From contig JACCXN010000089.1 in assembly GCA_013696965.1 (NCBI GenBank), forward strand, positions 1 to 12,325: DNA of 12,325 nt, read 5' to 3'. A program made the translations under genes and the position numbers. The notes beneath the pieces are model-generated. The model did no database searches, had not been told where the DNA came from, and worked only from the letters and a program-made list of their open reading frames with translations. Numbering within the stretch: position 1 is the stretch's first letter; each line of letters begins with the position of its first letter. The DNA comes from Bacteroidota bacterium (GTDB lineage Bacteria > Bacteroidota > Bacteroidia > JACCXN01). This document shows positions 299 through 12,325 of the stretch, one piece after another.

Positions 299-1024
299 TT
301 ATTCTAAAACGTTATATTTAATTTCAAATGGAACCCTCAATTGATCCCCAAAATTATTTATTTCTATATACGCTTTATGATAATTCGGCCCAATTTTTTT
401 GGCCTTTAGATGTGCAATCGGATAATTAATTATATCTAATTCATAATCTGTTACTGTATCTCCTTCGATAACTACTTTATAATCTTTACCTGTGTGTGCA
501 CCAATAATATATATATGTGCACTATACTCTTCATTTAAGCGTACATTTTCCTTTTTAGGAACAACTAATATTTTATATGAATCAAAATCAAGACTAGCTC
601 GTAAAACATAATTTATTATCATTTTTGAAATTAACACCTCTAAATTCAAAATTTTATATTTTATTAAACCCCTGTTTAAAAAGTTGAATGGCTCATCAAA
701 TTCTGTAGAAAAAAAATTATTATCCTCATATTGATTAATATTATAGTGCAAAAAATTCACATAATCTATAATATTTTTCTCAGGCAAATCATTTATATTT
801 TCTGCAATTGAGTTGTTTTTAATAAAATTAAGAATTGAATCTTCAAGATAAAAAATCTTTTCATTGTTAGTCATTATATAATAATACTCCTGATAATTTT
901 TTTCAAAAATATCCTTTAATATTTTTTCCTCTTTATTAAGATACTGAATATCTTTATTTTCGTTATTACACGAAAAAATTAAAAGGAAAAGAAAAGCTAC
1001 TACTAAATGATGAATAAATTTCAT
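299..1024 (-). CDS. Putative lipoprotein, possible partner of the Rhs protein
   Basis: This 241-residue protein begins with a typical lipoprotein signal: Lys2, a hydrophobic segment at about residues 7-17, and a lipobox ending IFSC with Cys19 as the lipidation site. It should be exported and membrane-anchored. Residues 20-150 are rich in Asn, Glu and Lys and look helical. Residues 150-241 read as beta strands, and the run from VPKKENVRLNEEYSAHIYI onward is loosely reminiscent of the beta domains of GldM-type gliding/T9SS proteins; that resemblance is from memory and weak. The ATG is 7 bases after the Rhs stop, so the two genes are almost certainly co-transcribed. Rhs-type toxins are commonly followed by an immunity gene, so an immunity role is a reasonable guess, but nothing in the sequence proves it. 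The family is not recognised. Confidence 0.75.
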   Translation of the reverse strand: MKFIHHLVVAFLFLLIFSCNNENKDIQYLNKEEKILKDIFEKNYQEYYYIMTNNEKIFYLEDSILNFIKNNSIAENINDLPEKNIIDYVNFLHYNINQYEDNNFFSTEFDEPFNFLNRGLIKYKILNLEVLISKMIINYVLRASLDFDSYKILVVPKKENVRLNEEYSAHIYIIGAHTGKDYKVVIEGDTVTDYELDIINYPIAHLKAKKIGPNYHKAYIEINNFGDQLRVPFEIKYNVLE

Positions 1025-1031
1025 ATTATTA

Positions 1032-1967
1032 TTATTTTTTATCTTCAGTCCAAACTTCGTGTTCTCTACCTTTCCTTGCCCTAACTGAGTCCCCCTTTGT
1101 TGGTGCCATCACTCCACCATAAGAACCTGTCGTGGGGTCATAAGTATTTATATGTGAATTACTCCTCTTTTCTCCAGATTCTTGAGGCTGATTAGCTGAT
1201 TTCTCTTTTATCATATCCTGCACTTCATTTACTATTCCAGTGACTGCATTTATTAAATCTGGCCCAACATTTACTAAACCAGCTAAATCTCCATTAATAT
1301 TTTTCGAGGCACCTAATGCATCCAGGAATCCTCCAATATTGATCTTCATTTCGTCTTCCGATGACCTGTTTTTCGTAGTGTTTGATCCACCTTCATCACT
1401 CACAAAATGAAACCCTCCTTGTTCACTGCCAGATCCTTCAAGATCAATATTTGATGGCAAATAGGTATCTGCCCACGAATATATTTTGGTTATATTTTCA
1501 TTATAATTTTCAATCTTTCCAGTTTCTACATTGTAGGTCATCTCAAATCCAATATCTACAGCTCTTGTGTTAGTTGTAAACCTATTATGAGCTGATAAAT
1601 AATCTCTTCCTATTACATCTCTTTTAACAGAGCGATCAGAGTCTACCTTTAATATACCCACTACCTTTCCTTGATTGTTAACAAGTGTAACATATCCTTT
1701 AACATCTCTTCCATCAGGATCAATAAAATAAACAGGATTATTTTTTACAAAATTATAGGGACTATGTGATGGATATTTGGCTTGTAAAGGATCCAAAGAC
1801 AACCACCTACCAATTCTCGGATCAAGAATCCTTGCCCCAAAATCATAGCTATTCCCGCTTCCCTTCAATTCATCGTCTTTTTCCATTGAGTTAAACCCGT
1901 ACCTGTATGTGTTTATGTATCCTGACAGGAAACTTTTATTTTCAGATGTACAGGTTGTCAAAAACAT
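1032..1967 (-). CDS. Orphan Rhs C-terminal protein (Rhs core plus variable tail)
   Basis: This 311-residue protein consists of the last part of an Rhs/YD-repeat protein. Residues 21-88 are the Rhs-associated core, with YRYGFN, MEKDDE, SYDFGARILDPRIGRWLSLDPL-type text, YNFVKNNP and the closing DPDGRD. After the core comes a variable tail (89-311) that I cannot match to a known toxin; it contains an amphipathic stretch near 210-255. Intact Rhs proteins are usually far longer, and here the YD repeats are missing. An in-frame TGA lies three codons before the ATG, so the short form is not an artefact of the start choice. Residues 1-20 look like unrelated junction sequence. A TAnnTTTG box 35 bases upstream could drive it. 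Either it is a displaced tip cassette, as seen at Rhs loci that swap C-termini, or a remnant. The lipoprotein gene follows directly. Confidence 0.8.
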   Translation of the reverse strand: MFLTTCTSENKSFLSGYINTYRYGFNSMEKDDELKGSGNSYDFGARILDPRIGRWLSLDPLQAKYPSHSPYNFVKNNPVYFIDPDGRDVKGYVTLVNNQGKVVGILKVDSDRSVKRDVIGRDYLSAHNRFTTNTRAVDIGFEMTYNVETGKIENYNENITKIYSWADTYLPSNIDLEGSGSEQGGFHFVSDEGGSNTTKNRSSEDEMKINIGGFLDALGASKNINGDLAGLVNVGPDLINAVTGIVNEVQDMIKEKSANQPQESGEKRSNSHINTYDPTTGSYGGVMAPTKGDSVRARKGREHEVWTEDKK

Positions 1968-2011: not shown

Positions 2012-2051
2012 AAAAAAAATAGAGGAAACCTATTTAGTTTTCCTCTATTTT
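2012..2051 (-). terminator. Intrinsic terminator of the recombinase operon
   Basis: A perfect 13-bp inverted repeat (2016-2028 with 2039-2051) has the core ATAGAGGAAA/TTTCCTCTAT and a 10-base loop. On the minus strand the stem runs into an uninterrupted T tract (complement of the A run 2012-2019). It lies about 75 bases after the stop of the 118-residue gene and would end the five-gene operon. T residues on the other side could also allow plus-strand termination. Confidence 0.85.
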
Positions 2052-2123
2052 ACAATCAATTATTAACTGGATTATTTAAGCATATTAATTCAGGCTTTCC
2101 GGGCAAATTAGGGTAATTATATC

Positions 2124-2480
2124 TTATGGCTTCTCATCAAGGATTGTATAAATATCAAATAAATTCCCTTCCGGTAGAATAAACTGAACCTTTGTTTTTG
2201 ACTTTTGAGTTGACCCTTCATTTAAAACTTCTTTGAAAAGAGCCGTAATTCTATTAGCAAGATTGCTAATTTCTTCCATGTTTTTAGGAGTTGGAAGTTT
2301 ATAGAGAGATTCATTCTGCTCTGTGGACTTGAAATCATCTACTAATAATTTCCTCATTCTTTCTCTAAAGGGATCGTGCTTATTTGAACAATCGTAAGAA
2401 ACTAAAAGTTCGAATCGTTTATTATCCTTTTCAAATTTTTTAAAGTTTTCGATTGATGTTCTTATTTCTCCTAATGGCAT
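2124..2480 (-). CDS. Small protein of the recombinase operon, possible ferredoxin-like fold
   Basis: This 118-residue hypothetical protein is the last gene of the operon, starting 28 bases after the second recombinase. The family is not recognised. The order of predicted elements is strand (FELLVSYD, 23-30), helix (36-50), strand (ESLYKL, 57-62), helix (68-86), strand (KVQFILP, 96-102). That beta-alpha-beta-alpha-beta order, with an Asp at the end of the first strand followed by a basic helix, is reminiscent of Cas2/VapD-type small proteins. This is inference from reading the sequence only, and there are no cas genes or repeats here. By position it could be an accessory factor for the recombinases, comparable to the small third protein of Tn554-like elements. 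AGGAG lies only one base before the ATG, closer than usual, so the true start may differ slightly. Confidence 0.7.
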   Translation of the reverse strand: MPLGEIRTSIENFKKFEKDNKRFELLVSYDCSNKHDPFRERMRKLLVDDFKSTEQNESLYKLPTPKNMEEISNLANRITALFKEVLNEGSTQKSKTKVQFILPEGNLFDIYTILDEKP

Positions 2481-2508
2481 ACTCCTGTTTTTTTTCCAAA
2501 GATAACAA

Positions 2509-3384
2509 TTATCCCAAAGGGTGAAATCGATTCATAAGTTCCCGCTGTTCCTCAATATTTATTTGCCTGTATTTAACTGTAGTAGAAATCCACTTTTGCC
2601 CTGAAATCATTTGTACCTGCTCTAATGGTAGCTTCTTTTCATTGAGCCAATTTGAAATCACGCTCTGTCGGATGGTACTTGGAGTTAAATTCCTGTCCGG
2701 GAATAACGGTTTGTAAGTAGATACCAAATAATGGATGTCATCTACAGTAAGCCGAGTACCAAGCTTCCCTAAAATTAAAGCATTGGTTTCTTCACGCATC
2801 AAAGACTTTCTGCCCTCCTGGAGATAGTGGTCAATCAACCGGAATTGCTTATTGTGAAGTTCAATGTGTCGCTGGCCTATCTTCCTGCTGGCTTTTATAA
2901 AAATAGTTCCGTTGTCAAAATCAATGTTGCTTAAATTCAGGTTTTGGATCTCCCCTGAATTTAATCCCTGATAAATAAGCAAAGACATGACCACCTGATT
3001 GCGCTGTTTCAAATCAGCATAACGCTCCTCTCTTTCCAAAAGCAGTTCCAGTTCACTTGAACTAAATAAATCCTGATGGATTACTTGGCGATTTCTAACG
3101 TTCCTGATAAAAAAGTTCCGGCAAGGGTGATCGTTGCGCCTTCCAATGTCAATTAAATAATCGTAATATTTTTTGATGCCATTCAAAATATAAAGCTTGG
3201 TATTTTGGTTAGCGTAATCCTTCACCTTTTGATTCAGGTACTCCACAATGTCTTTGTACTTGTAATCATCAGGCTGAGGATTATCAGTCATAAAAACTTT
3301 GTTAGCAAACAAGTAGCTTTTCACCGTTTGAGGGGTGTGCTTGATCTGATGAAGATAATGTTCAAATGTGATTGGTTCTTTCAT
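2509..3384 (-). CDS. Tyrosine recombinase-like protein with degenerate active site
   Basis: This 291-residue protein has the phage-integrase/Xer layout: a helical core-binding N-terminal domain (about 5-95) and a C-terminal catalytic domain (about 105-285). Lined up with the family, several catalytic positions are changed. The first Arg (usually GLRxSE) is Asn142 in GLNSGE. The HxLRH box reads STIRQ, so His is replaced by Ser236 while Arg239 stays. The later GH reads GQ (Gln263). The nucleophile candidate Tyr272 in VKYRQ is kept. Loss of the first Arg and both His argues against independent strand cleavage in the usual way. The ATG is 2 bases after the stop of the intact recombinase, so the two are translationally linked. 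It may act as an architectural or regulatory partner in a heteromeric recombinase complex, though it could also be a decaying copy. Confidence 0.88.
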   Translation of the reverse strand: MKEPITFEHYLHQIKHTPQTVKSYLFANKVFMTDNPQPDDYKYKDIVEYLNQKVKDYANQNTKLYILNGIKKYYDYLIDIGRRNDHPCRNFFIRNVRNRQVIHQDLFSSSELELLLEREERYADLKQRNQVVMSLLIYQGLNSGEIQNLNLSNIDFDNGTIFIKASRKIGQRHIELHNKQFRLIDHYLQEGRKSLMREETNALILGKLGTRLTVDDIHYLVSTYKPLFPDRNLTPSTIRQSVISNWLNEKKLPLEQVQMISGQKWISTTVKYRQINIEEQRELMNRFHPLG

Positions 3385-3386
3385 GG

Positions 3387-4319
3387 TTATCTGACTTGAC
3401 TTAAAATTTTCATTTGCTGTTTTCTTCGTTTTGAATAAAGGTGAGCGGTATCTATTTCCGCATGACCAAGTAGTTGCTGCACAAACTCGATGTTTGCCCC
3501 GTTGTCGAGCAAATGTGTAGCGATGCTATGACGCAGACAATGCAGGGTAATTTCTTTTCTTAACAGTTCAATATTTTGTGTGCGCTCAATAATTGCCTTT
3601 AAAGTATTTCCTAAATATTGTCCTCCCATTCTTTTGCCTTTATTATTAAGAAAGAAAGCAGGTGTTTCTTCATAATTGGTAGCAGGGAAATAAGTGCTGC
3701 GTTCGAAAATAATATACTCCTTTAAATCCCTTACTACGTTGTTAGAAAGAGGCACTGTGCGTGATTTACTACCTTTTCCTTCCCTTACCAGCAGCATTCC
3801 TTTATGAAGCAGCACATCGGTAGTATTAAGGTTTTCAAGTTCACTTCTTCTCAGGCCACAACCATAAGCAATTCCCAATAGTGCCTTTTCCCTTTTGTTT
3901 TGACAGGATGAATACAACAATTTGATTTCTTCAATCGTACAAATATTGCGTTCCTTATACTTTCCAAATTGAAATTTTGGAAGCCTTGCAGGGGAACTGT
4001 CTATTTCTTCCCTCTCTACCAAATCATCAAAAAACAAGCGAAGCGCATAAAGGTGATGCCTTATCATTGATTCGCTTAAACCACCGCCTGTCTTCTGATT
4101 GGGACGTTCCCGCAGATATTCGTAATAACTTATGATTTCCGTGGCTTTCACAACCTGAATGGTAGTAAACCCCTTGATCTCTATAAAGAATAAAAACTCC
4201 CTGACACAGCTTTGAATCTGGCAGCCTTTTCCCTGACGATAACCTTTGGTGATTATCATATTATTAAAATCCTTATACAAGGCTTGAAAGTGCGGGCTAT
4301 TTATGGGTAAGTGTTTCAT
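3387..4319 (-). CDS. Tyrosine recombinase/integrase, intact active site
   Basis: This 310-residue site-specific recombinase of the XerC/D-like tyrosine family has all expected catalytic residues: Arg157 in GCGLRRSE, the beta-hairpin Lys185 in GKGSKSR, His260 and Arg263 in HCLRH, His286 in LLGH, and the nucleophile Tyr295 in AHLYSKRR. The N-terminal domain (about 10-105) is the SAM-like core-binding domain. The length is normal for the family. The enzyme would cut and rejoin DNA at attachment sites to move its element. It is the third gene of a five-gene operon, 73 bases after the ATPase gene and 2 bases before the degenerate second recombinase. The close pairing with a divergent paralogue and with primase/ATPase genes argues against a housekeeping Xer role. 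Confidence 0.95.
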   Translation of the reverse strand: MKHLPINSPHFQALYKDFNNMIITKGYRQGKGCQIQSCVREFLFFIEIKGFTTIQVVKATEIISYYEYLRERPNQKTGGGLSESMIRHHLYALRLFFDDLVEREEIDSSPARLPKFQFGKYKERNICTIEEIKLLYSSCQNKREKALLGIAYGCGLRRSELENLNTTDVLLHKGMLLVREGKGSKSRTVPLSNNVVRDLKEYIIFERSTYFPATNYEETPAFFLNNKGKRMGGQYLGNTLKAIIERTQNIELLRKEITLHCLRHSIATHLLDNGANIEFVQQLLGHAEIDTAHLYSKRRKQQMKILSQVR

Positions 4320-4352
4320 TTCTTTTTATGGTTTCTTTACGATACTTTTTTT

Positions 4353-4369
4353 TGCTTACTATGCTTACT
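4353..4369. repeat. Tandem 8-base direct repeat before the recombinase genes
   Basis: TGCTTACT occurs twice (4353-4360 and 4362-4369), one base apart, in the 73-base gap between the ATPase stop and the first recombinase ATG. The 9-bp period is close to one helical turn. It could be a binding site, but it may be chance in AT-rich DNA. Confidence 0.3.
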
Positions 4370-4392
4370 CTTGGAATTCTGAACCGCTACGC

Positions 4393-6267
4393 TCATTCCT
4401 TTTGCTGTTGCGGGTTTTGGTGTTCCAAGCTTTCTGAACCAATAGGAACCAATGCTGATAATTGCTTTAGGAGTTCGGTCTTGATGCGATCTCTAATTTT
4501 CTCCATATCGTCCCAAAACACAATCTTGTATTTAAATCCCCTATTGGCATAACCTCCTGTTCTTTGAATGTACTCCAGCAGTTCCAAGTCTTCCATAAAC
4601 CTAAAGCATTGAGTTTTGCTTACATTCAGGGCAAGCCTCACATCTCTCTGAGTAAACTGGTACTCGTTTTGTTTTCCGGCTGCCTGTTTTTTAATAAACT
4701 CTTTCATGCGGTCAAAGAAGAGTCGCAGGGAAGAATCCAGATCATCCACCTTCAGCATAATCGCATCGAATAAAATATCACAGGCCACTATCAGGTCTTC
4801 AGGTTGGGCAATCAGCCTTCCCTGTTCGTCACGTTTTCGCTGGTACTGATGCAGAATAGTTATTTGCTTTACAAAAGCTTGGTAATGGCTGTTTAACCTT
4901 CTGAGCATTTTTGCTTCAATGGGCAGAATGATTTTATCAGCGTAGCAGTTCACCACTTCAATGGGCTTAACGCACCTCATGCAATTTTGAAAAAACTCTT
5001 TTGTTTTCTGCTCTTCTTTCACATCAATAAGCCCCGCTAATCTTCTGTTCTGATATTCTATGATGCGCATGGTCTGCTCGTCTGTTTCATCTACTCCGAT
5101 AATCACCGAGCGACTCATGTTGTCATAATATATCTCCGCTTTGGTTGTGGCCAAAAGCGAAGCAAAATGGCTGCGTACATGCTTTATGGTTGAGACAATG
5201 TTTCCGCTGCGGTCTTTATAGGTTGTCGAGGAGCTGATGTTTCCGGCACTTTGCAGTTCCCTGAAAGCGTACTGTGCTTCCTCATCCAAACCATCATAAT
5301 CCTGAATCAGCATTACCTTGTCCACCAGTTCATCTTTATTGTAATGATAGAAGGACTTGCTGGTCACCCTTGTCATGGAAAGCACGTCTTCAGGAGGTAA
5401 ACATTGTCCGATAATATTTATCAGGTGGGACTTACCGCTTCCCGAACTGCCCTGCACCAAAGCATGCAGGGGGTGAGACATTTTATAAGTAGAGGCTATC
5501 ACAAATAAAAGCTTGCGGGTATTATTTTCTCCAACAACTCCAGCCTTTTCAATCAGCCCATCAAATCGCTCCATCAGGTTGGGCTGTGATAAAAATTCAA
5601 TGCAGCTTTTTTGGTTTTCAGGAGAAACGCTGGCATATTGACGTTTGATTTGGTATTGGGATTTGGCTTGCTCAAATTGCCTTTCCCGAAATTGCTCCAA
5701 CAGATCAGTCAGCATCAGCAAATCGGACTCGATTATTTCTGCGTTCTGATAAAATTGCTCCGCCAGTTGAAGTGCAAAGTTCCTTACCGTTTCTCTTTCG
5801 TATAAATCAAGCTTTGTTCTTTCTTTTCTTCCGTAAGCCAAATCCTCCACCATTAAGGTAATTCGCATGCTGCTTAAATCCTGAGTAAGCATCCCAAGTA
5901 TATAATAATGGTTGGAAGAGGTGCGCATCAGGATTTTATTTTCATGGATCACTTCCAGCTTTGCTTGCTCTGGTTCCGGTTCTGATTCCTCCTCTTTTAT
6001 TTCCTTCTTTCTTGTTGCAGCTTTAATTATTGGAGTGGTAATGTTTTCGATTTCCGGTTTGAGCTGCACAATTAATGGGGCAGCCACATTCGTCACAGCT
6101 ACCTCTTCTACCTCCTCAAGTTCTTCTGCATTCTGAATGATCTGCATAACCCCCGCACTTCCATACTGCCGATAAACCGAATTCAGGTTTTCATTTTCCC
6201 CAAGCGTTGCCTTCTTGATTGGAACACTTGTTATAATGTCCCTAAGTTCCTTTACTGAATTTCCCAT
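4393..6267 (-). CDS. P-loop ATPase with C-terminal winged helix, mobile-element type
   Basis: This 624-residue protein has an N-terminal region (1-110) rich in Glu, Val and Pro that is probably disordered, including acidic stretches at 48-56 and 90-100. A nucleotide-binding domain follows, with Walker A GSSGSGKSH (273-281) and a Walker B-like strand VMLIQDYDGLDEE (318-330). A C-terminal helix-turn-helix or winged-helix segment (about 536-583) has QRDVRLALNVSKTQ as its recognition region. The layout resembles the helicase or ATPase half of phage and plasmid primase-helicase proteins, so it may remodel or unwind DNA during movement of the element. Its ATG lies one base after the stop of the DnaG/TOPRIM-like gene, suggesting the two proteins work together as a split primase-ATPase. 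I cannot name an exact family. No clear sensor or arginine finger was assigned. Confidence 0.85.
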   Translation of the reverse strand: MGNSVKELRDIITSVPIKKATLGENENLNSVYRQYGSAGVMQIIQNAEELEEVEEVAVTNVAAPLIVQLKPEIENITTPIIKAATRKKEIKEEESEPEPEQAKLEVIHENKILMRTSSNHYYILGMLTQDLSSMRITLMVEDLAYGRKERTKLDLYERETVRNFALQLAEQFYQNAEIIESDLLMLTDLLEQFRERQFEQAKSQYQIKRQYASVSPENQKSCIEFLSQPNLMERFDGLIEKAGVVGENNTRKLLFVIASTYKMSHPLHALVQGSSGSGKSHLINIIGQCLPPEDVLSMTRVTSKSFYHYNKDELVDKVMLIQDYDGLDEEAQYAFRELQSAGNISSSTTYKDRSGNIVSTIKHVRSHFASLLATTKAEIYYDNMSRSVIIGVDETDEQTMRIIEYQNRRLAGLIDVKEEQKTKEFFQNCMRCVKPIEVVNCYADKIILPIEAKMLRRLNSHYQAFVKQITILHQYQRKRDEQGRLIAQPEDLIVACDILFDAIMLKVDDLDSSLRLFFDRMKEFIKKQAAGKQNEYQFTQRDVRLALNVSKTQCFRFMEDLELLEYIQRTGGYANRGFKYKIVFWDDMEKIRDRIKTELLKQLSALVPIGSESLEHQNPQQQKE

Positions 6268-6268
6268 G

Positions 6269-6880
6269 TTACTTTTTGATTTTAATTTGTATTACTTCAC
6301 TTAGGTGCTTCAGGCTTTTTATTGCTTTTACATGCTGATCTAAAAAAACACCGTTATTTAATGCAATCACCGCTTCCCTGTTATCTAAAACTTTTGATTC
6401 GAGCATCGTTGCAGCATCCATTATGTTGTCCACCACAAACAACCTTCTGGTCTGCTCACTTGGATATCCCGGATACAAGCCTTCTAAATTCATATAATCG
6501 GTTTTGTCATTTTTTATTCCCATTGAATAAAAGTTGACGATTTCATTTTTTTCGTTTCTGAGCGGAAACATAATTGAGAAGCTTCCAAACACTGTATAAG
6601 GAATCGAATGGCAATTTGATGCGAAATTTGAAACCTTCATAAATCCAATCCGCTCCAGCGATTCTTTAAACTCCCTTTCCTTGCGATGGTGTAACTGGCC
6701 GGAATTAAAACAAGCCATCGAATTTTCAACAGTCAGCATTTTGCTTTTCAACCAATCTTTTGCTTGCTTACTTTTTCCGTAGCGTAAACCATTGCTTGCA
6801 TAACTGTAAACCAATTCTAAAAGCTCAAGCTCTGTTTTTTCATTCCAGTTTACCGCTTCGCTTGTTTCCTTATTTTCCAT
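6269..6880 (-). CDS. DnaG-core/TOPRIM-like protein, short and probably non-catalytic
   Basis: This 203-residue protein resembles the middle of bacterial DnaG-type primases. AKDWLKSKMLTVENSMACF (40-58) parallels the DnaG segment in which the helix is followed by a turn, IMFPLRNEKNEIVNFYSMG parallels the 'FPI-D-G-V-FGGR' strand pair, and LFVVDNIMDAATML parallels the TOPRIM 'VVEGYMD'. Two things are odd. The conserved TOPRIM Glu is replaced by Asp-Asn, and the protein stops where the DxD metal-binding strand should follow. No CHC2 zinc finger is present at the N-terminus. It is therefore likely a binding or structural primase relative rather than an active primase, unless the following ATPase supplies missing parts. 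It is the first gene of the five-gene operon. No Bacteroidota -7 box was found upstream. Confidence 0.7.
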   Translation of the reverse strand: MENKETSEAVNWNEKTELELLELVYSYASNGLRYGKSKQAKDWLKSKMLTVENSMACFNSGQLHHRKEREFKESLERIGFMKVSNFASNCHSIPYTVFGSFSIMFPLRNEKNEIVNFYSMGIKNDKTDYMNLEGLYPGYPSEQTRRLFVVDNIMDAATMLESKVLDNREAVIALNNGVFLDQHVKAIKSLKHLSEVIQIKIKK

Positions 6881-7229
6881 CGCATTATTTTTTGTTAGTT
6901 TCTAAAACCTAATACCAACAAGGTGTTTGGCCTCATTAACAACAAACATCAGTACACTCTTTGGAACACGCAAGTCTATACACCAGTATCTGCGAGGGTT
7001 TCAGATAAAGGGCATTTAACTTGCACGTCTCAAAAAGAAATGGCATGCAGGGATAAACCGCATTAGGAGTCATCAATTGCCGGGATTACTGCCAGTACAG
7101 CCGAATTATTAAAAAGTGCAGTTATCCTCATCATCGTTGACGAAGATAGGTCTGGGATTCAGGAAGGGAAGCGGGTTTGGTTAATGGTTGTCCAACAAGT
7201 GGATTATTATGCAGTGAAATGGATAAACA
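6881..7229. other. Gene-free 349-base region upstream of the recombinase operon
   Basis: No frame with a convincing start and protein-like content was found on either strand. On the plus strand a frame of about 60 codons stays open from 7068 into the HNH stop region, but it has no plausible start. The stretch looks somewhat richer in G and C than the flanking genes. It must hold the promoter of the minus-strand primase/ATPase/recombinase operon, although no TAnnTTTG box was seen, and the downstream end of the HNH transcript. It is also a candidate for one end of the mobile element. No terminator with a T tract was recognised. Confidence 0.5.
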
Positions 7230-8249
7230 TTACTTGGGTGGAATATTAATTACAGCGTCTTCGTAACTGAAAGAAATTTTATGGTTCTCTGTAATAGATG
7301 TTCCAATACTCAAATTAAAATATTTGATTTCTAGTGTCTGAGGTTCTTCTATTTTATCGTAAGCAACTCCAGGGAATAAATTTAAAACAAGTTGCCTCTT
7401 TCCATTGGTGACGTCCTTCAACTCATCAGAAAAGGGAAGGAAGATTTGAACGATTTGGTTCGCAAAACAAACAATGAGAATATACTCAGGGAATTCCTGC
7501 TTATCGGTAAAAATGTTTTTTGCTTTGTATAAGTCAGCAGATGGGGTAGTAAAACAACGTCTCTTAAGTGTTGAGACAAAAGCATGAGTAATGAAGCTTA
7601 AGTCATCCTGTCTATTCGTCAGCCATGCGAATGATTCTTTGTTGAACTTGTCAAATTCAGTCGGCAATAGTGAAAGTCCTATTTTTAAAAGTGATTTGTA
7701 AACTTTTAGAGGAATGAAAGGAGGTTTTCTGAAAACGATATCAACAGTTTTTGTATCTGTATTAATTGTATAGTCATCAAGTGTCTGAATATGTAACTCC
7801 TTTTGATTTCCTTCTCTATGTGCCAGAGTTGTTCGTGTTTTCTCATTTCGATCAACTGTCCGGGACTGAAATATAGGAACTTTCTTTTTTCCTTTAACTC
7901 CTAAAAGAGTAATATAAGGTCTAATAAAAATAGAAAAGCTACTTTCATAGTCACTAAATAATTTGTTGCAAATATCACATTCATCAAAAGTTAAAATGTC
8001 ATTTTCTCCAATAAGTTCAGGAAGTAAATGAGTGATTTGGTTGAAAGTTGTTTCTTTATCTGTCCTGTCACAATACCTACAAACTTTACTCTTGATTCTT
8101 GACGGCACATATGTTTTAGAGCTACTTATTAACTCATATTTATTCCAAAATTCAAGAGGGTCTGTTTGCATTTTTTTGTTTGTATTAGTTCTTTTTATCT
8201 CCGTCTTTTGGTTAGAGCCCTTTGCAGTTTTTCCGTTCTCTGTTGTCAC
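7230..8249 (-). CDS. HNH endonuclease-like protein
   Basis: This 339-residue protein has an HNH/zinc-type nuclease motif near its N-terminus: CRYC (Cys57, Cys60), then THLLPELIGEND with His74, then the second pair in DECDICNKLF (Cys91, Cys94) with Asn95. Spacing and wording match the HNH family in which two CxxC pairs hold a structural metal and a beta-beta-alpha site cuts DNA. The rest (about 110-339) is not recognised and could sense substrate or partner. The best start is GTG at 8249, which overlaps the TGA of the GIY-YIG gene as GTGA and implies translational coupling. A later ATG at residue 27 is an alternative that keeps the whole motif. The partnership with a GIY-YIG protein and a nearby ATPase suggests a restriction or defence role; this is inference. 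Confidence 0.8.
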   Translation of the reverse strand: MTTENGKTAKGSNQKTEIKRTNTNKKMQTDPLEFWNKYELISSSKTYVPSRIKSKVCRYCDRTDKETTFNQITHLLPELIGENDILTFDECDICNKLFSDYESSFSIFIRPYITLLGVKGKKKVPIFQSRTVDRNEKTRTTLAHREGNQKELHIQTLDDYTINTDTKTVDIVFRKPPFIPLKVYKSLLKIGLSLLPTEFDKFNKESFAWLTNRQDDLSFITHAFVSTLKRRCFTTPSADLYKAKNIFTDKQEFPEYILIVCFANQIVQIFLPFSDELKDVTNGKRQLVLNLFPGVAYDKIEEPQTLEIKYFNLSIGTSITENHKISFSYEDAVINIPPK

Positions 8250-9055
8250 TTGCTTTTTGAAATAATTGTCTGCATAAACAATTTAATTTCATCAATGTCA
8301 GTGCTTGTCAAGTCAAACCACTCCCCACGTTTTCTTTTCTCTTTATACTTTCTATGTAAAATTTTCTCAACCTCGGCTGAAGCAGCCCATTTTTCAATTA
8401 ATTCAACATCTGGCTCCTGTCCTTGTAAAGTTTTTTCTCTATGCTCTGGTTTTATGCTTCTCCCAATTTTGTGATAAAGATTTTGTTTGTTATACATAAT
8501 GTAAACGTATTGCAACTCTTGTTTTCCTAGTGTTTTAGAATTTACCTTCTTTTCCAAACCATTTTTAATATTTGGTTCTTTTGGTGGCTCGTCTGCAAGG
8601 GGAACAAACAGAATATCTCTATATCCTTTAAGGATCAAGTCACCGTTTTTTCCTTTTAACTCTTTAGCTAATTCGTTACCATAAGTCCAGTAGTCAAGTC
8701 TTTCAAATAAAGACCGTTGATGAGCTTGATAAGCATTAAAAACTTCATGAGGATTATTTCTGTTGTATGTCTCACATATAAAAGCAGAGAAGCAAGTTGT
8801 CAACTCATTTCTGTTCTTTGTGTGCGGTTGAAGTTTTAAGATAAACCCTTCTAATTTACCATTTACTTTTGTTACATAAGTGAGGTAATAGTCCAAATTT
8901 GGTTTGCTGTCATCCCAAACATATGCTCCAAATGCTTCATTGTGAAGATCACGAAGAACATTGAAAATTGAATTGTCGTTTTTCGATAAGTCGAGAATTT
9001 TTTGTTCAGTTAATTCTCCTAATCGTGTTTCAAAACTTTTTATTAATGCTTTCAT
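8246..9055 (-). CDS. GIY-YIG (T5orf172/MUG113-type) domain protein
   Basis: This 269-residue protein carries a C-terminal GIY-YIG-superfamily domain of the T5orf172/MUG113 type (about 181-260). The signature pieces are VYIMYNK (184-190), KIGRS (196-200), a conserved Arg206 before the TLQ turn, VELIEKW, EKILH with candidate metal-binding Glu230, and GEWFDL (244-249). Such domains occur in homing-type nucleases, phage proteins and defence genes and are expected to cut DNA. The N-terminal 180 residues are not recognised; they begin with a helical stretch and may bind a partner or target. The gene lies 138 bases after the ATPase and overlaps the HNH gene by 4 bases, so two predicted nucleases are made together. 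Nuclease activity is inferred from motifs only. Confidence 0.82.
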   Translation of the reverse strand: MKALIKSFETRLGELTEQKILDLSKNDNSIFNVLRDLHNEAFGAYVWDDSKPNLDYYLTYVTKVNGKLEGFILKLQPHTKNRNELTTCFSAFICETYNRNNPHEVFNAYQAHQRSLFERLDYWTYGNELAKELKGKNGDLILKGYRDILFVPLADEPPKEPNIKNGLEKKVNSKTLGKQELQYVYIMYNKQNLYHKIGRSIKPEHREKTLQGQEPDVELIEKWAASAEVEKILHRKYKEKRKRGEWFDLTSTDIDEIKLFMQTIISKSK

Positions 9056-9113
9056 TTACTCTTAATTTAAAGACCAGCCGTTGTCAGTTATCGTAAATTC
9101 CCACTTCCCCCGC

Positions 9114-9135
9114 CATAACGCAAAGGTACTGTTAG
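9114..9135. repeat. Intergenic repeat, copy A (contains a TAnnTTTG box)
   Basis: CATAACGCAAAGGTACTGTTAG matches the block at 11699-11721 at about 18 of 22 aligned positions with one gap. Both copies lie in gaps between genes of the same block, in the same orientation. The minus strand reads TACCTTTG (9121-9128), a perfect match to the Bacteroidota -7 element and a possible promoter for the GIY-YIG/HNH pair. Because the box is part of a repeat and is broken in the other copy, the promoter call is uncertain. Confidence 0.45.
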
Positions 9136-9193
9136 AGGTTCGTTGCTTTTTTTATTGTATGGTTCTCCATTTTACCATTTTCTTAACGTATTA

Positions 9194-11518
9194 CTAAATC
9201 AGTTGTATTAGTTTTAATGTTCTTTCACAATAATTTCTTAATTCAGCGTCGGTTACAGGCTCGCTATCTGAATTTGTATTATGTCGATGGTGGTATTTTT
9301 TTGAGTAATCATTAATGTCTGTTAGTTCAGCAACTTCAGGTAGGAGTCTATTGTATGCGTCAGTAGTTATTGAATTTCTTACTTTGTCTATGAAGTTACC
9401 AAGCCATTCGGAGGGCAATAGAAGGTCAAAAAACTTTAGATGAAAATAACTTTCTAAGGCAGGTCTTAAGCACCTTGCGATATTTCGTCTTTCTTGGTCT
9501 ATAAAACAGCCATTTGTTAGGTAGTTTTTAATTGCTGTACTGTCTTTTAAGACACTTGATAAAGTGTCATTGTCAATATGATATTCAACAATACAACCAG
9601 TATTCCCTACAAATTCAATTTTACTGCATTGATTTGTCAAGTTAATTTGATTTGTACTTTTCCAAAACTCTCCTGCAAAAATAATGTTGTGAGTTAATAC
9701 AAATAGCTGTTTTGCTTGTTGCGCGAAGTGTAATAATTTGGAAATAGTTGTTGATTTTCTATTAAGATCAAAGCTTGAAACTGGGTCGTCAAAAACAATT
9801 ATTTTGTCTTGGATATTTCCGTCAACTTCCAATTTGGTGAGGAAAAATGCCAAGGCAAGCGCACTTTTATCGCCTTCGCTCAAGGAGTATTTAAAGGTTG
9901 AAAAAAGCGGACTGTCTTCAAGTTTAATTTCATTTCCATTTATATGAAGAGCATATTTTATCATTGGCTCTTTACTGCTTCCTACATAAACGCTATCTAA
10001 TCCTCGGATTTCAAGATAGGGTGCGAACGCCTGTAGATATTGATTTATTTTTGTCGAATAGTTTGCGAAAATTGTCGTTGAATAATTGTCAAGCAATAAT
10101 TGTTTAGCGTCCTTGTCGGTTTTAAGAAGTGCAACAGAGGAATTGTATGATGTTAGGTTTGTACAAAACCCATCAATAGTTGGATCGCTTCGTTTCTTAA
10201 TTGCTTTTAACTTCCTTAAATCTATTTCAAGTTGAACTAGGTTAGGTTGAATCAAAGCCTTTGTTGCAGCGATAGAAGCTTTGTAAGCGGAAATGTGAAC
10301 ATTTAATTCGGTAATTTTCTTATTGAATGCTTCAACAATAGTATTAAAATGCGAAACGCTAGAAGGGTCATGAGATTTAATCGGGTTTTCTGACTTGAGC
10401 TTCAATACTTCCTTTATTGCTTCAAATGCAGAAACAAATGACTCTTTTTCTTGAATAACGGATACGAGAACAGGAGGATTTTGTATGTGGGGCTGCCAAA
10501 ATTCAATCAAATTAATATTTGCTGTAATCTTGTTTTCTATTTCTAAAAATTGTGCTTCAAGGTTAAAGTTTGAAATAGCTAGTCGCTGTTCTCCCAATTG
10601 TTCAAGCAAGCTATTATACTCTTCATTGAAGTATTGTTTATATGCTTCAATTATTTCAATCGTGTCCTCAAAAGGTCTTAAGCAAAAAGGACAGCCGTTA
10701 TTTTTTATCGCTTCATATCCTTGTTTAATCCACTGCTCTGACTTGCCACCCATTACAAGATGATCCTTGTGTTCATTGAATTTTGCAAGATATGTTTCTG
10801 AAATAGTGTCTATTGATTGGCTCAGCGCTGTTTCTAAAGCAACAGTATCGAATGGAAAAGTAAGTACTTGAATTAAATTTAAGTTAGCTTTGGATTGAAT
10901 AGTTTGAAAACTCTTAGCGGTTAAAATTTCTGCCTCTTTAAGTGATATTTTATTATCTACGTCCGTATCGATTTGAATATTTGTAAATGCTTCGGCAGTA
11001 TAGGCTCTCTCAATTGCCAGTTCAATTTTTTCAGTTGTTTCTTTGATGATTTTACCACCATTATGTATTCTGTCCTTAATGGATTGGATATCTAATTTTA
11101 AAGCTATTCCTTGTTGCCCGAATATTACTTCAAATAGATTTTTCTTATGCGAGGTTTGTATTTCTAATCCAGTGTAAATATTCTCATTTATAAAATGAAT
11201 ATCAAAAATTTCAATATTTTCATAGTGATTGTCCCAGGCAGTTGAAGTGAAAGTTAGTTTTGGATTGGTTGTATCGTCTGTTAATACCTCTACCGTCTGA
11301 GTTACGGTTCTGTCAAATGCTCTCTTTTTTGGAAGCAATGTATTATCCCCTTTTAACGAATTCAAAATTACTGCAATTGTAGTTTTCCCACTGCCGTTTT
11401 CACCGTATATGAGATTTATTCTTTCAAAATCAGTTGTCCTATGTCCACTAGGAATGGTGCTATGATTATAGTTCAGAAATTTTCCCGTCCCGTGTATTTT
11501 TATAAATTTCTTTATCAT
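9194..11518 (-). CDS. RloC/PrrC-like ABC-type ATPase (AAA_13 family) with CPFC motif
   Basis: This 774-residue protein has a split ABC-type nucleotide-binding head. Walker A is GENGSGKTT (39-47), the signature-like LSEGD is at 546-550, Walker B is IIVFDDPVSSFD (573-584) with catalytic Asp577-Asp578, and the H-loop His is 610 in LTHN. The middle (about 140-480) is helical/coiled and carries CPFC (276-279), a possible zinc-hook motif as in RloC and Rad50. This is the layout of the AAA_13 family, which includes the anticodon nucleases PrrC and RloC and other defence ATPases. The C-terminal part (660-774) has Arg685-x3-Glu689 and later His743/744/746, loosely like the Arg-Glu-His set of PrrC-type nucleases, but activity is not assured. 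No type I restriction genes are seen beside it, unlike classical prrC. GIY-YIG and HNH genes follow. Confidence 0.87.
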   Translation of the reverse strand: MIKKFIKIHGTGKFLNYNHSTIPSGHRTTDFERINLIYGENGSGKTTIAVILNSLKGDNTLLPKKRAFDRTVTQTVEVLTDDTTNPKLTFTSTAWDNHYENIEIFDIHFINENIYTGLEIQTSHKKNLFEVIFGQQGIALKLDIQSIKDRIHNGGKIIKETTEKIELAIERAYTAEAFTNIQIDTDVDNKISLKEAEILTAKSFQTIQSKANLNLIQVLTFPFDTVALETALSQSIDTISETYLAKFNEHKDHLVMGGKSEQWIKQGYEAIKNNGCPFCLRPFEDTIEIIEAYKQYFNEEYNSLLEQLGEQRLAISNFNLEAQFLEIENKITANINLIEFWQPHIQNPPVLVSVIQEKESFVSAFEAIKEVLKLKSENPIKSHDPSSVSHFNTIVEAFNKKITELNVHISAYKASIAATKALIQPNLVQLEIDLRKLKAIKKRSDPTIDGFCTNLTSYNSSVALLKTDKDAKQLLLDNYSTTIFANYSTKINQYLQAFAPYLEIRGLDSVYVGSSKEPMIKYALHINGNEIKLEDSPLFSTFKYSLSEGDKSALALAFFLTKLEVDGNIQDKIIVFDDPVSSFDLNRKSTTISKLLHFAQQAKQLFVLTHNIIFAGEFWKSTNQINLTNQCSKIEFVGNTGCIVEYHIDNDTLSSVLKDSTAIKNYLTNGCFIDQERRNIARCLRPALESYFHLKFFDLLLPSEWLGNFIDKVRNSITTDAYNRLLPEVAELTDINDYSKKYHHRHNTNSDSEPVTDAELRNYCERTLKLIQLI

Positions 11519-12171: not shown

Positions 12172-12325
12172 GTATCCCCCCGGGCAACTACACCCTAGCC
12201 ATAAAGCAACTAATCTAATTGAATTTATTCTCTGGTAATTGAAGGTTTTGCGGAAAGAGCTCATGTAATTTATTGACTTTATGATCAGCGATTTTGTTAA
12301 GCACCTCTGACAGCCATTCCATTGG
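12172..12325 (-). mobile_element. End of an IS66-family insertion sequence (partial)
   Basis: The window edge cuts the element. Its outer end is placed at 12172, where the sequence begins GTATCC and runs into CCGGGCAACTACACC. IS66 elements usually have terminal inverted repeats beginning GTAA and make 8-bp target duplications; here the fourth base differs and the other end is outside the window, so the boundary is inferred. The candidate duplicated target would be 12164-12171. The element's transposase is transcribed toward the truncated gene at 11733. Confidence 0.6.
12215..12325 (-). CDS. IS66-family transposase, C-terminal end (partial)
   Basis: The last 36 codons of a gene run in from beyond the right edge and stop at TAG (12217-12215). 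The peptide contains PMEWLSEVLNKIADHKVNKLHEL, which matches the conserved C-terminal element of IS66 TnpC transposases (WLxxVLxRIPxHPxxxLxELLPHNW). Here the closing PHNW reads PQNL and a short tail NKF follows. The transposase would catalyse movement of the IS. Only the tail is visible, so whether the copy is intact cannot be told. Confidence 0.8.
   Translation of the reverse strand, partial: PMEWLSEVLNKIADHKVNKLHELFPQNLQLPENKFN

Follow-up and report, generated by a model that had tools for sequence, protein, structure and literature searches.

Toxin tip exchange at RHS and CdiA genes by a probable tyrosine-recombinase integrative element with a primase and an MCM-like ATPase

P4-like satellites and tycheposons combine a tyrosine recombinase with a primase-helicase and are integrated at one specific site, RIT elements consist of three adjacent tyrosine recombinase genes, and Tn554-like transposons possess a TnpA/TnpB recombinase pair together with TnpC and have att554 as their target.

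The exchange of toxin tips is a subject of its own. Displacement of Rhs C-terminal regions was described by Jackson in 2009 (PMC2935791), with small circular intermediates being proposed and no integrase known beside rhs, while Poole in 2011 (PMC3150448) reported orphan cdiA-CT/cdiI modules, one of which spans from VENN to VENN, and called the exchange mechanism unknown. The motifs that mark the toxin border are VENN in CdiA and PxxxxDPxGL in Rhs (PMC3150448). Polymorphic toxin cassettes were treated by Zhang in 2012 (PMC3482391), where the accessible portion of the text mentions XerC/D only beside some polyimmunity loci. The way in which tips and immunity genes are exchanged with such precision has been an open question since 2009 and 2011.

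The DNA analyzed here, referred to as the window, is the complete 12,325-nucleotide contig JACCXN010000089.1 (C89) of a draft 3.86-Mb Bacteroidota genome. Its features are given below in the order in which the minus strand is read.

12215 to 12325, minus strand: C-terminal fragment of an IS66 transposase, located at the edge of the contig; the left end of the window's element lies beyond it.
7230 to 11518, minus strand: probable cargo, namely HNH, GIY-YIG/T5orf172 and AAA_13 ATPase genes, with an equivalent slot in the related locus L042.
6269 to 6880, minus strand: DnaG-like primase remnant of 203 aa that has neither the CHC2 zinc finger nor the TOPRIM DxD; kept in the window's clade.
4393 to 6267, minus strand: AAA+ ATPase of 624 aa, the AlphaFold model of which is MCM-like over residues ~208-602.
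3387 to 4319, minus strand: Y1 tyrosine recombinase with the full catalytic set R, K, H, R, H, Y.
2509 to 3384, minus strand: Y2 partner recombinase, without Arg I and with Arg II and Tyr kept, a family-wide state.
2124 to 2480, minus strand: ORF of 118 aa, variable cargo between Y2 and the right end of the element, with no relative in 74 loci.
2017 to 2060, minus strand: hairpin and T-tract resembling an intrinsic terminator, as read from the sequence, at the right end of the element; conserved.
1890 to 1915, minus strand: right junction between the element end and the displaced RHS core at the codons YRYGFN, with core homology from 1907.
1032 to 1967, minus strand: displaced RHS tip, i.e. 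a remnant of the RHS-associated core (TIGR03696) and a C-terminal toxin region.
299 to 1024, minus strand: gene right after the displaced tip, in the position of an immunity gene, with a lipoprotein-like start and a GldM_2nd match.

The five minus-strand ORFs from 6880 down to 2124, with intergenic gaps of 1, 73, 2 and 28 bases, exist as described in an initial annotation of the sequence, in which they were taken to form one mobility module closed by a strong terminator. The terminator is likewise real, as a hairpin near 2017-2060 (stem AATAGAGGAAA/TTTCCTCTATT, followed by T8) is kept in the nearest relatives; its loop, at more than 8 nt, kept an automatic scan from reporting it. The module itself proved to be only the engine of a larger element, and the displaced RHS tip immediately downstream (1032-1967) had been overlooked. 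This tip carries an RHS-associated core (TIGR03696, 48.2 bits against a cutoff of 32.5), and together with its relatives it displays the make-up of an RHS polymorphic toxin locus, in which a core precedes a variable C-terminal part and a small gene. The fifth member of the supposed module, the 118-residue ORF, was rejected as a part of the core and is counted as cargo, as it had no relative in any of the 74 loci surveyed below. In the nearest relatives of the window, the spacing from Y2 to the junction is only ~175-226 bp.

Two further observations concern the right-hand part of the window. The gene at 299-1024 matches the second domain of the gliding-motility motor GldM (GldM_2nd, 26.9 bits against a Pfam cutoff of 24.4), which is odd for an immunity protein. 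Positions 1-126 recur on contigs C9 (100%) and C20 (85%) of the draft assembly and contain an inverted repeat at 41-85, and are possibly a dispersed palindromic or terminator repeat. No relaxase match was found among the window ORFs scanned, the left end of the element being situated outside the contig.

By scanning 84,980 species genomes once, we obtained 379 confirmed relatives; 74 loci were kept, and profiles were built for each part. The conserved core consists of the primase, the AAA+ ATPase, Y1 and Y2. A CHC2 or primase segment was located upstream of the ATPase in 72 out of 72 cases, and Y1 followed by Y2 downstream of it in all 65 copies having enough downstream DNA, an order that is far beyond chance. 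A joint search thereby found the four core genes together in other genomes. Their surroundings were equally constant: in 74 further Bacteroidota loci, and also in Proteobacteria, the core sits within RHS or CdiA polymorphic-toxin genes. The first RHS core met downstream shared the strand of the module in 53 of 54 cases, and in 38 of 43 there was a same-strand RHS core at a distance of at most 7 kb. Each element carries a toxin tip and usually an immunity gene, with the old tip left downstream.

When plasmids were searched with the ATPase, fused CHC2-TOPRIM-ATPase proteins were retrieved, followed by one or two tyrosine recombinases, from Aureibacter, Aureispira, Pseudomonas, Enterobacter, Leptospira and others; an Enterobacter ATPase is ~22% identical to that of the window. 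Except in Leptospira, these share a plan that starts with a full-length RHS/CdiA gene, a small gene and a divergent HTH regulator and continues with the CHC2-ATPase, the recombinase(s) and then an RHS/CdiA tip or its small gene. On a Leptospira plasmid (L005, 6034-13840), a module of HTH, CHC2-ATPase and double recombinase lies next to ParA/ParB, without an annotated RHS tip, and it may serve as a plasmid replicon there.

The genome of the window harbors further ATPase copies on contigs C25, C51 and C8, all of them adjoining RHS tips, and the copy on C25 comes after an RHS ORF of 2,816 residues. The C25 and C51 elements (L030 and L031) have the ATPase and both recombinases and no primase. A fifth CHC2 fragment of this genome is found at the edge of contig C35. 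At E<=1e-20, the ATPase was present in 13 out of 395 Bacteroidota genomes, five of which had two copies 6-8.5 kb apart, and the locus is therefore patchy and often tandem. In E. coli, 55 out of 5,426 genomes carried the element, distributed over 199 places that were all chromosomal; it was situated at the rhsE locus in four genomes that were opened and elsewhere in a fifth. The ATPase had no match in phage records, and its gene was absent from two other genomes of the window's family, both incomplete.

Both the P-loop and the C-terminal winged-helix region ascribed to the ATPase (4393-6267) in the initial annotation were recovered, its P-loop family being otherwise unassigned in Pfam and NCBIfam. 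With the AlphaFold model of the protein (mean pLDDT 78), the top Foldseek matches were MCM helicase chains (E 7e-13), and the top VIA matches to MCM chains had Z values of ~22-24 over ~270-300 residues, among them one with Z ~23.8 and an rmsd of 3.1 over 294 residues. The model thus has an MCM-type AAA+ fold. The Pfam MCM profile matched none of the 27 ATPase members, and we therefore speak of an MCM-like fold instead of filing the protein as an MCM; a PDB profile search returned merely weak P-loop matches. It is in predicted structure only that the ATPase resembles MCM replicative helicases.

In many relatives the ATPase is fused to a CHC2-TOPRIM primase, and in the E. coli relative the CHC2 and TOPRIM domains are both there. 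The window's clade has instead a separate primase gene of 203 residues, so that the "split" arrangement first noted is a clade-specific relic of a fused CHC2-TOPRIM-ATPase protein. The gene (6269-6880), first described as a DnaG/TOPRIM-like fragment, matches DNAG_N at E=5e-4, under the Pfam cutoff, but the CHC2 zinc finger and the TOPRIM DxD are absent both from it and from its counterparts in the nearest relatives. Having neither CHC2 nor the TOPRIM acidic residues, the window gene does not classify as a DnaG-type primase. We read the whole as a primase-helicase replication protein with its primase part reduced in the window's clade. Judging from its residues, the remnant is apparently inactive, and the window copy is therefore probably dependent on the host primase, or less autonomous.

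Y1 and Y2 both match the Pfam domain Phage_integrase. Y1, first described as intact, has all six catalytic residues R-K-H-R-H-Y in every copy having the column. The IntI models gave it scores of 97 against a cutoff of 265 and 60 against 435, i.e. Y1 falls below the level of an integron integrase of this type. Y2 had been called degenerate, and Arg I is indeed lost in 78 out of 87 copies; Arg II is however kept in 87 of 87 and Tyr in 86 of 86, and because these residues persist family-wide, the state of Y2 is a conserved one and not decay. While two adjacent recombinases are the rule in Bacteroidota, the Proteobacteria examined have one, which is XerC-like. A third, short tyrosine-recombinase-like gene was seen upstream of the primase remnant in a Flavobacterium element (L061, 8357-8932), and weak matches to such a gene occur also in L055, L058 and L066.

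The junctions were counted in Bacteroidota, using the 62 distinct nearest displaced tips behind Y2. The RHS-core motif was missing ahead of the profile start in 60 of these, and 61 had an in-frame stop upstream. As read from the sequences, the codons Y[RK]Y(G/K)(F/Y)N are the exact start of most displaced tips, and what stands ahead of them is unrelated. The RHS genes ahead of elements, if long enough to judge, cross the junction point in frame with the core, and beyond the core the tips differ across loci. The tip in the window starts at the same YRYGFN-type codons, at 1907, without any RHS core ahead of them, and the sequence ahead of it aligns with the right ends of its nearest relatives, L042 and L043. 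In this small clade, the element end supplies the displaced tip with a start codon and a leader of ~20 residues, and the displaced tip may therefore be expressed. The YRYGFN site is not universal in Bacteroidota, since in Aureispira the crossover precedes this position by ~60 codons within the RHS core and falls in a perfect inverted repeat with 7-bp arms and a 7-bp spacer (TAGAACA-TTACGAG-TGTTCTA). In groups besides Aureispira no uniform repeat was apparent by eye, and a general inverted-repeat attachment site is not claimed.

Insertion could be followed at the base level in two natural pairs of sites. A search with the element end and the displaced tip found E. coli strains that match exactly from the tip onward. 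In Ec-U9-1 the tip is joined to RhsE with no element present, i.e. an empty allele, and when compared with the occupied rhsE of KW21 the flanks are 99.1% and 99.8% identical. The insert in KW21 consists of 7,789 bp between 15-bp direct repeats, GACCCGATAGGGCTG, which correspond to the codons DPIGL. The second pair is the Enterobacter cdiA gene, empty in the plasmid p3442-FRI-1 and occupied in pJBIWA003_2, where the flanks are 99.7% identical over 11,013 bp and 99.8% over 1,403 bp, and the VENN codons, GTTGAGAATAAC, have received an insert of two copies in tandem, each 7,685 bp long. The sequence common to both borders amounts to 12-15 bp in the two insertions. Empty and occupied sites with short direct repeats, as characterize a site-specific integrative element, are thus found in the rhsE and cdiA relatives. 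For the window copy no such empty site turned up; as both pairs, with their single XerC-like recombinase, are distant relatives of the window's element, the behavior we attribute to the window is that of its clade members.

Spread between species is visible in Flavobacterium, as an element in F. cupreum (L059) and one in F. circumlabens (L060) have 9,483 bp in common, with 99.95% identity. No difference is seen in the last 60 bp ahead of the junction, and identity continues for ~15 bp into the core codons, after which the tips differ. The locus is not a static one, an outcome that, with vertical inheritance, the initial annotation had named as speaking against its reading. Its proposal of a mobility module that joins recombination to replication or unwinding is consistent with the conserved gene order, the MCM-like ATPase and the site-specific insertion in relatives, but it fell short of the residence in RHS/CdiA genes and of the tip swapping, and it included a gene outside the core. 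Tandem identical copies of elements were also observed. The circular records L007, L008 and L009 were set aside as proof of excision, being possibly collapsed tandem arrays or products of homologous recombination; L007 corresponds to a single period of the rhsE array of E. coli, and the three are therefore no proof of a circle.

Our preferred explanation, to which we assign a probability of roughly 85%, is a tyrosine-recombinase integrative element that probably replicates as a circle and swaps polymorphic-toxin tips, the DNA at the border of constant and variable parts acting as its attachment site. As we infer it, the circle would carry the toxin tip, the immunity gene, a regulator, cargo, the primase-helicase and the recombinase(s). 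Y1, or XerC in Proteobacteria, would recombine this circle with the chromosomal site, and the partly inactive Y2 would assist in Bacteroidota as a structural or regulatory partner. The conserved 5' part of the toxin gene would then become fused in frame to the tip of the element, with the immunity gene coming along, while the old tip and its immunity gene would end up behind the element, where they would usually be silent. The MCM-like helicase, together with the DnaG-type primase where this is intact, would replicate the circle, and such replication would make tandem reinsertion and spread possible. A bolder version, to which we lend somewhat less than half of our belief, is that we are dealing with a novel class of integrative elements which replicate themselves and which serve as a general engine of polymorphic-toxin diversification across phyla, in which DPxGL, VENN and YRYGFN are conserved partly as the recombination site and the half-inactive partner, kept in Bacteroidota, controls the reaction.

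The alternative that fares best, although we consider it unlikely, is a plasmid-like or satellite replicon for which the toxin gene is just a secure place to integrate, comparable to the tRNA genes used by others, and in which the tip merely rebuilds the end of the gene. The MCM-like helicase fold agrees with this, as do the Leptospira plasmids in which the HTH, CHC2-ATPase and double-recombinase module stands beside ParA/ParB. Inserted and displaced tips differ in the pairs read, however, and the following gene in the immunity position comes along; since the tips differ, the insert changes the specificity of the weapon rather than restoring it. The main difference between such a replicon and the tip-swapping integrative element lies in what selection maintains.

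That the recombinases act merely as a local switch, deleting or shuffling tandem cassettes within a genome and thus loading a silent tip with little transfer between cells, appears improbable to us. A copy of the site stands at either border of each mapped element, so that excision would restore the previous tip, and multi-tip arrays at one locus are common, but the 99.95% identical element with different tips behind it in two Flavobacterium species and the patchy distribution argue against a switch of this kind, which moreover needs no helicase-primase. Local-switch and mobile uses are mutually compatible.

Chance movement of tips by RecA-dependent homologous recombination between RHS/cdiA cores, with the recombinase and primase genes as passengers (the model of Jackson 2009), is in our estimation highly doubtful. 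Some core sequence is common to tips, unequal crossing over can expand tandem arrays, and a record such as L007, equal to one array period, could arise in this manner. An identity of 12-15 bp, which is all that the borders of both natural insertions have in common, is nevertheless short for RecA-dependent homologous exchange. Scattered breakpoints would be expected from it, whereas 60 out of 62 displaced tips have no core ahead of the same codons, and the recombinase genes always accompany the ATPase.

The remaining genes of the window are the HNH, GIY-YIG/T5orf172 and AAA_13 genes, which form one run on the minus strand (7230-11518). In PADLOC, the AAA_13 ATPase matches the candidate defense family PDC-S06 (E 5e-55) and the HNH gene has a weak match to PtuB. 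The matching slot in L042, the closest relative, contains two cytosine-5 DNA methyltransferases and a 512-aa protein (4679-8980). Assigned by position alone, through this slot equivalence, the run probably belongs to the element as cargo, and it may be an undescribed three-gene defense arrangement. On contig C95 (L034, 3-10593), many genes of varied kinds come after an RHS tip, one of them related to the HNH gene of the window; this may be a further cargo-rich element or an array. An anti-phage defense system in a defense island, with the primase, ATPase and recombinases as defense genes, would fit the PDC-S06 and PtuB matches and the two methyltransferases in the same slot of L042, but is very improbable, as none of the four core genes has a convincing PADLOC match and RHS tips are the constant neighbors, while the defense-like genes vary among elements as cargo would.

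In the proposed tip-swapping integrative element, an integrase and a replication module come together with footprints of insertion, resolved to the base, at the motifs known to delimit the toxin, and the element could explain how toxins used in warfare change so precisely. The question can now be tested in laboratory E. coli, with tens of named strains in which to search for the circle.

We found no published description of such an element in the open-access literature, subscription papers being outside the scope of the search, and its novelty is provisional. With Rhs displacement and the orphan cdiA-CT modules it shares the displacement of old tips by new ones, the arrays of orphan tips and the border motifs; while homologous recombination or an open mechanism was invoked for these (PMC2935791, PMC3150448), here a dedicated recombinase and a helicase-primase travel with the tip. 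The cassettes of PMC3482391 are similar in that, according to the accessible portion of that text, toxin/immunity cassettes that stand alone become joined by recombination to a constant gene body, and different in that this portion nowhere uses the words primase, integrase or transposon. The rAID of gut Bacteroidales (PMC12247911), as far as the available part of its description goes, likewise has a tyrosine recombinase beside immunity genes in Bacteroidota, but is an array of orphan immunity genes, with no RHS tip insertion or helicase-primase mentioned there. In our loci, the recombinases are neighbored by RHS tips and the gene following them, and not by a toxin-less array of orphan immunity genes. 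The bcpAIOB composite transposon or megacircle of Burkholderia (PMC6350997) is also mobile, linked to a contact-dependent toxin and able to form a circle; it differs in its size of ~210 kb, in its IS2-like transposases and in that the whole locus moves, with no swap of tips at one codon.

Among elements with tyrosine recombinases, the presence of two adjacent recombinases in Bacteroidota and of one in the Proteobacteria examined separates ours from RIT elements, and from their description Tn554-like transposons look different in both gene set and target. P4-like satellites and tycheposons may be regarded as analogous, given their recombinase, primase-helicase and integration at a single site. 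They target tRNA or other housekeeping genes, whereas the target here is the border of a toxin gene, and here, unlike in those elements, the target gene is completed by the cargo, which lends it a new function.
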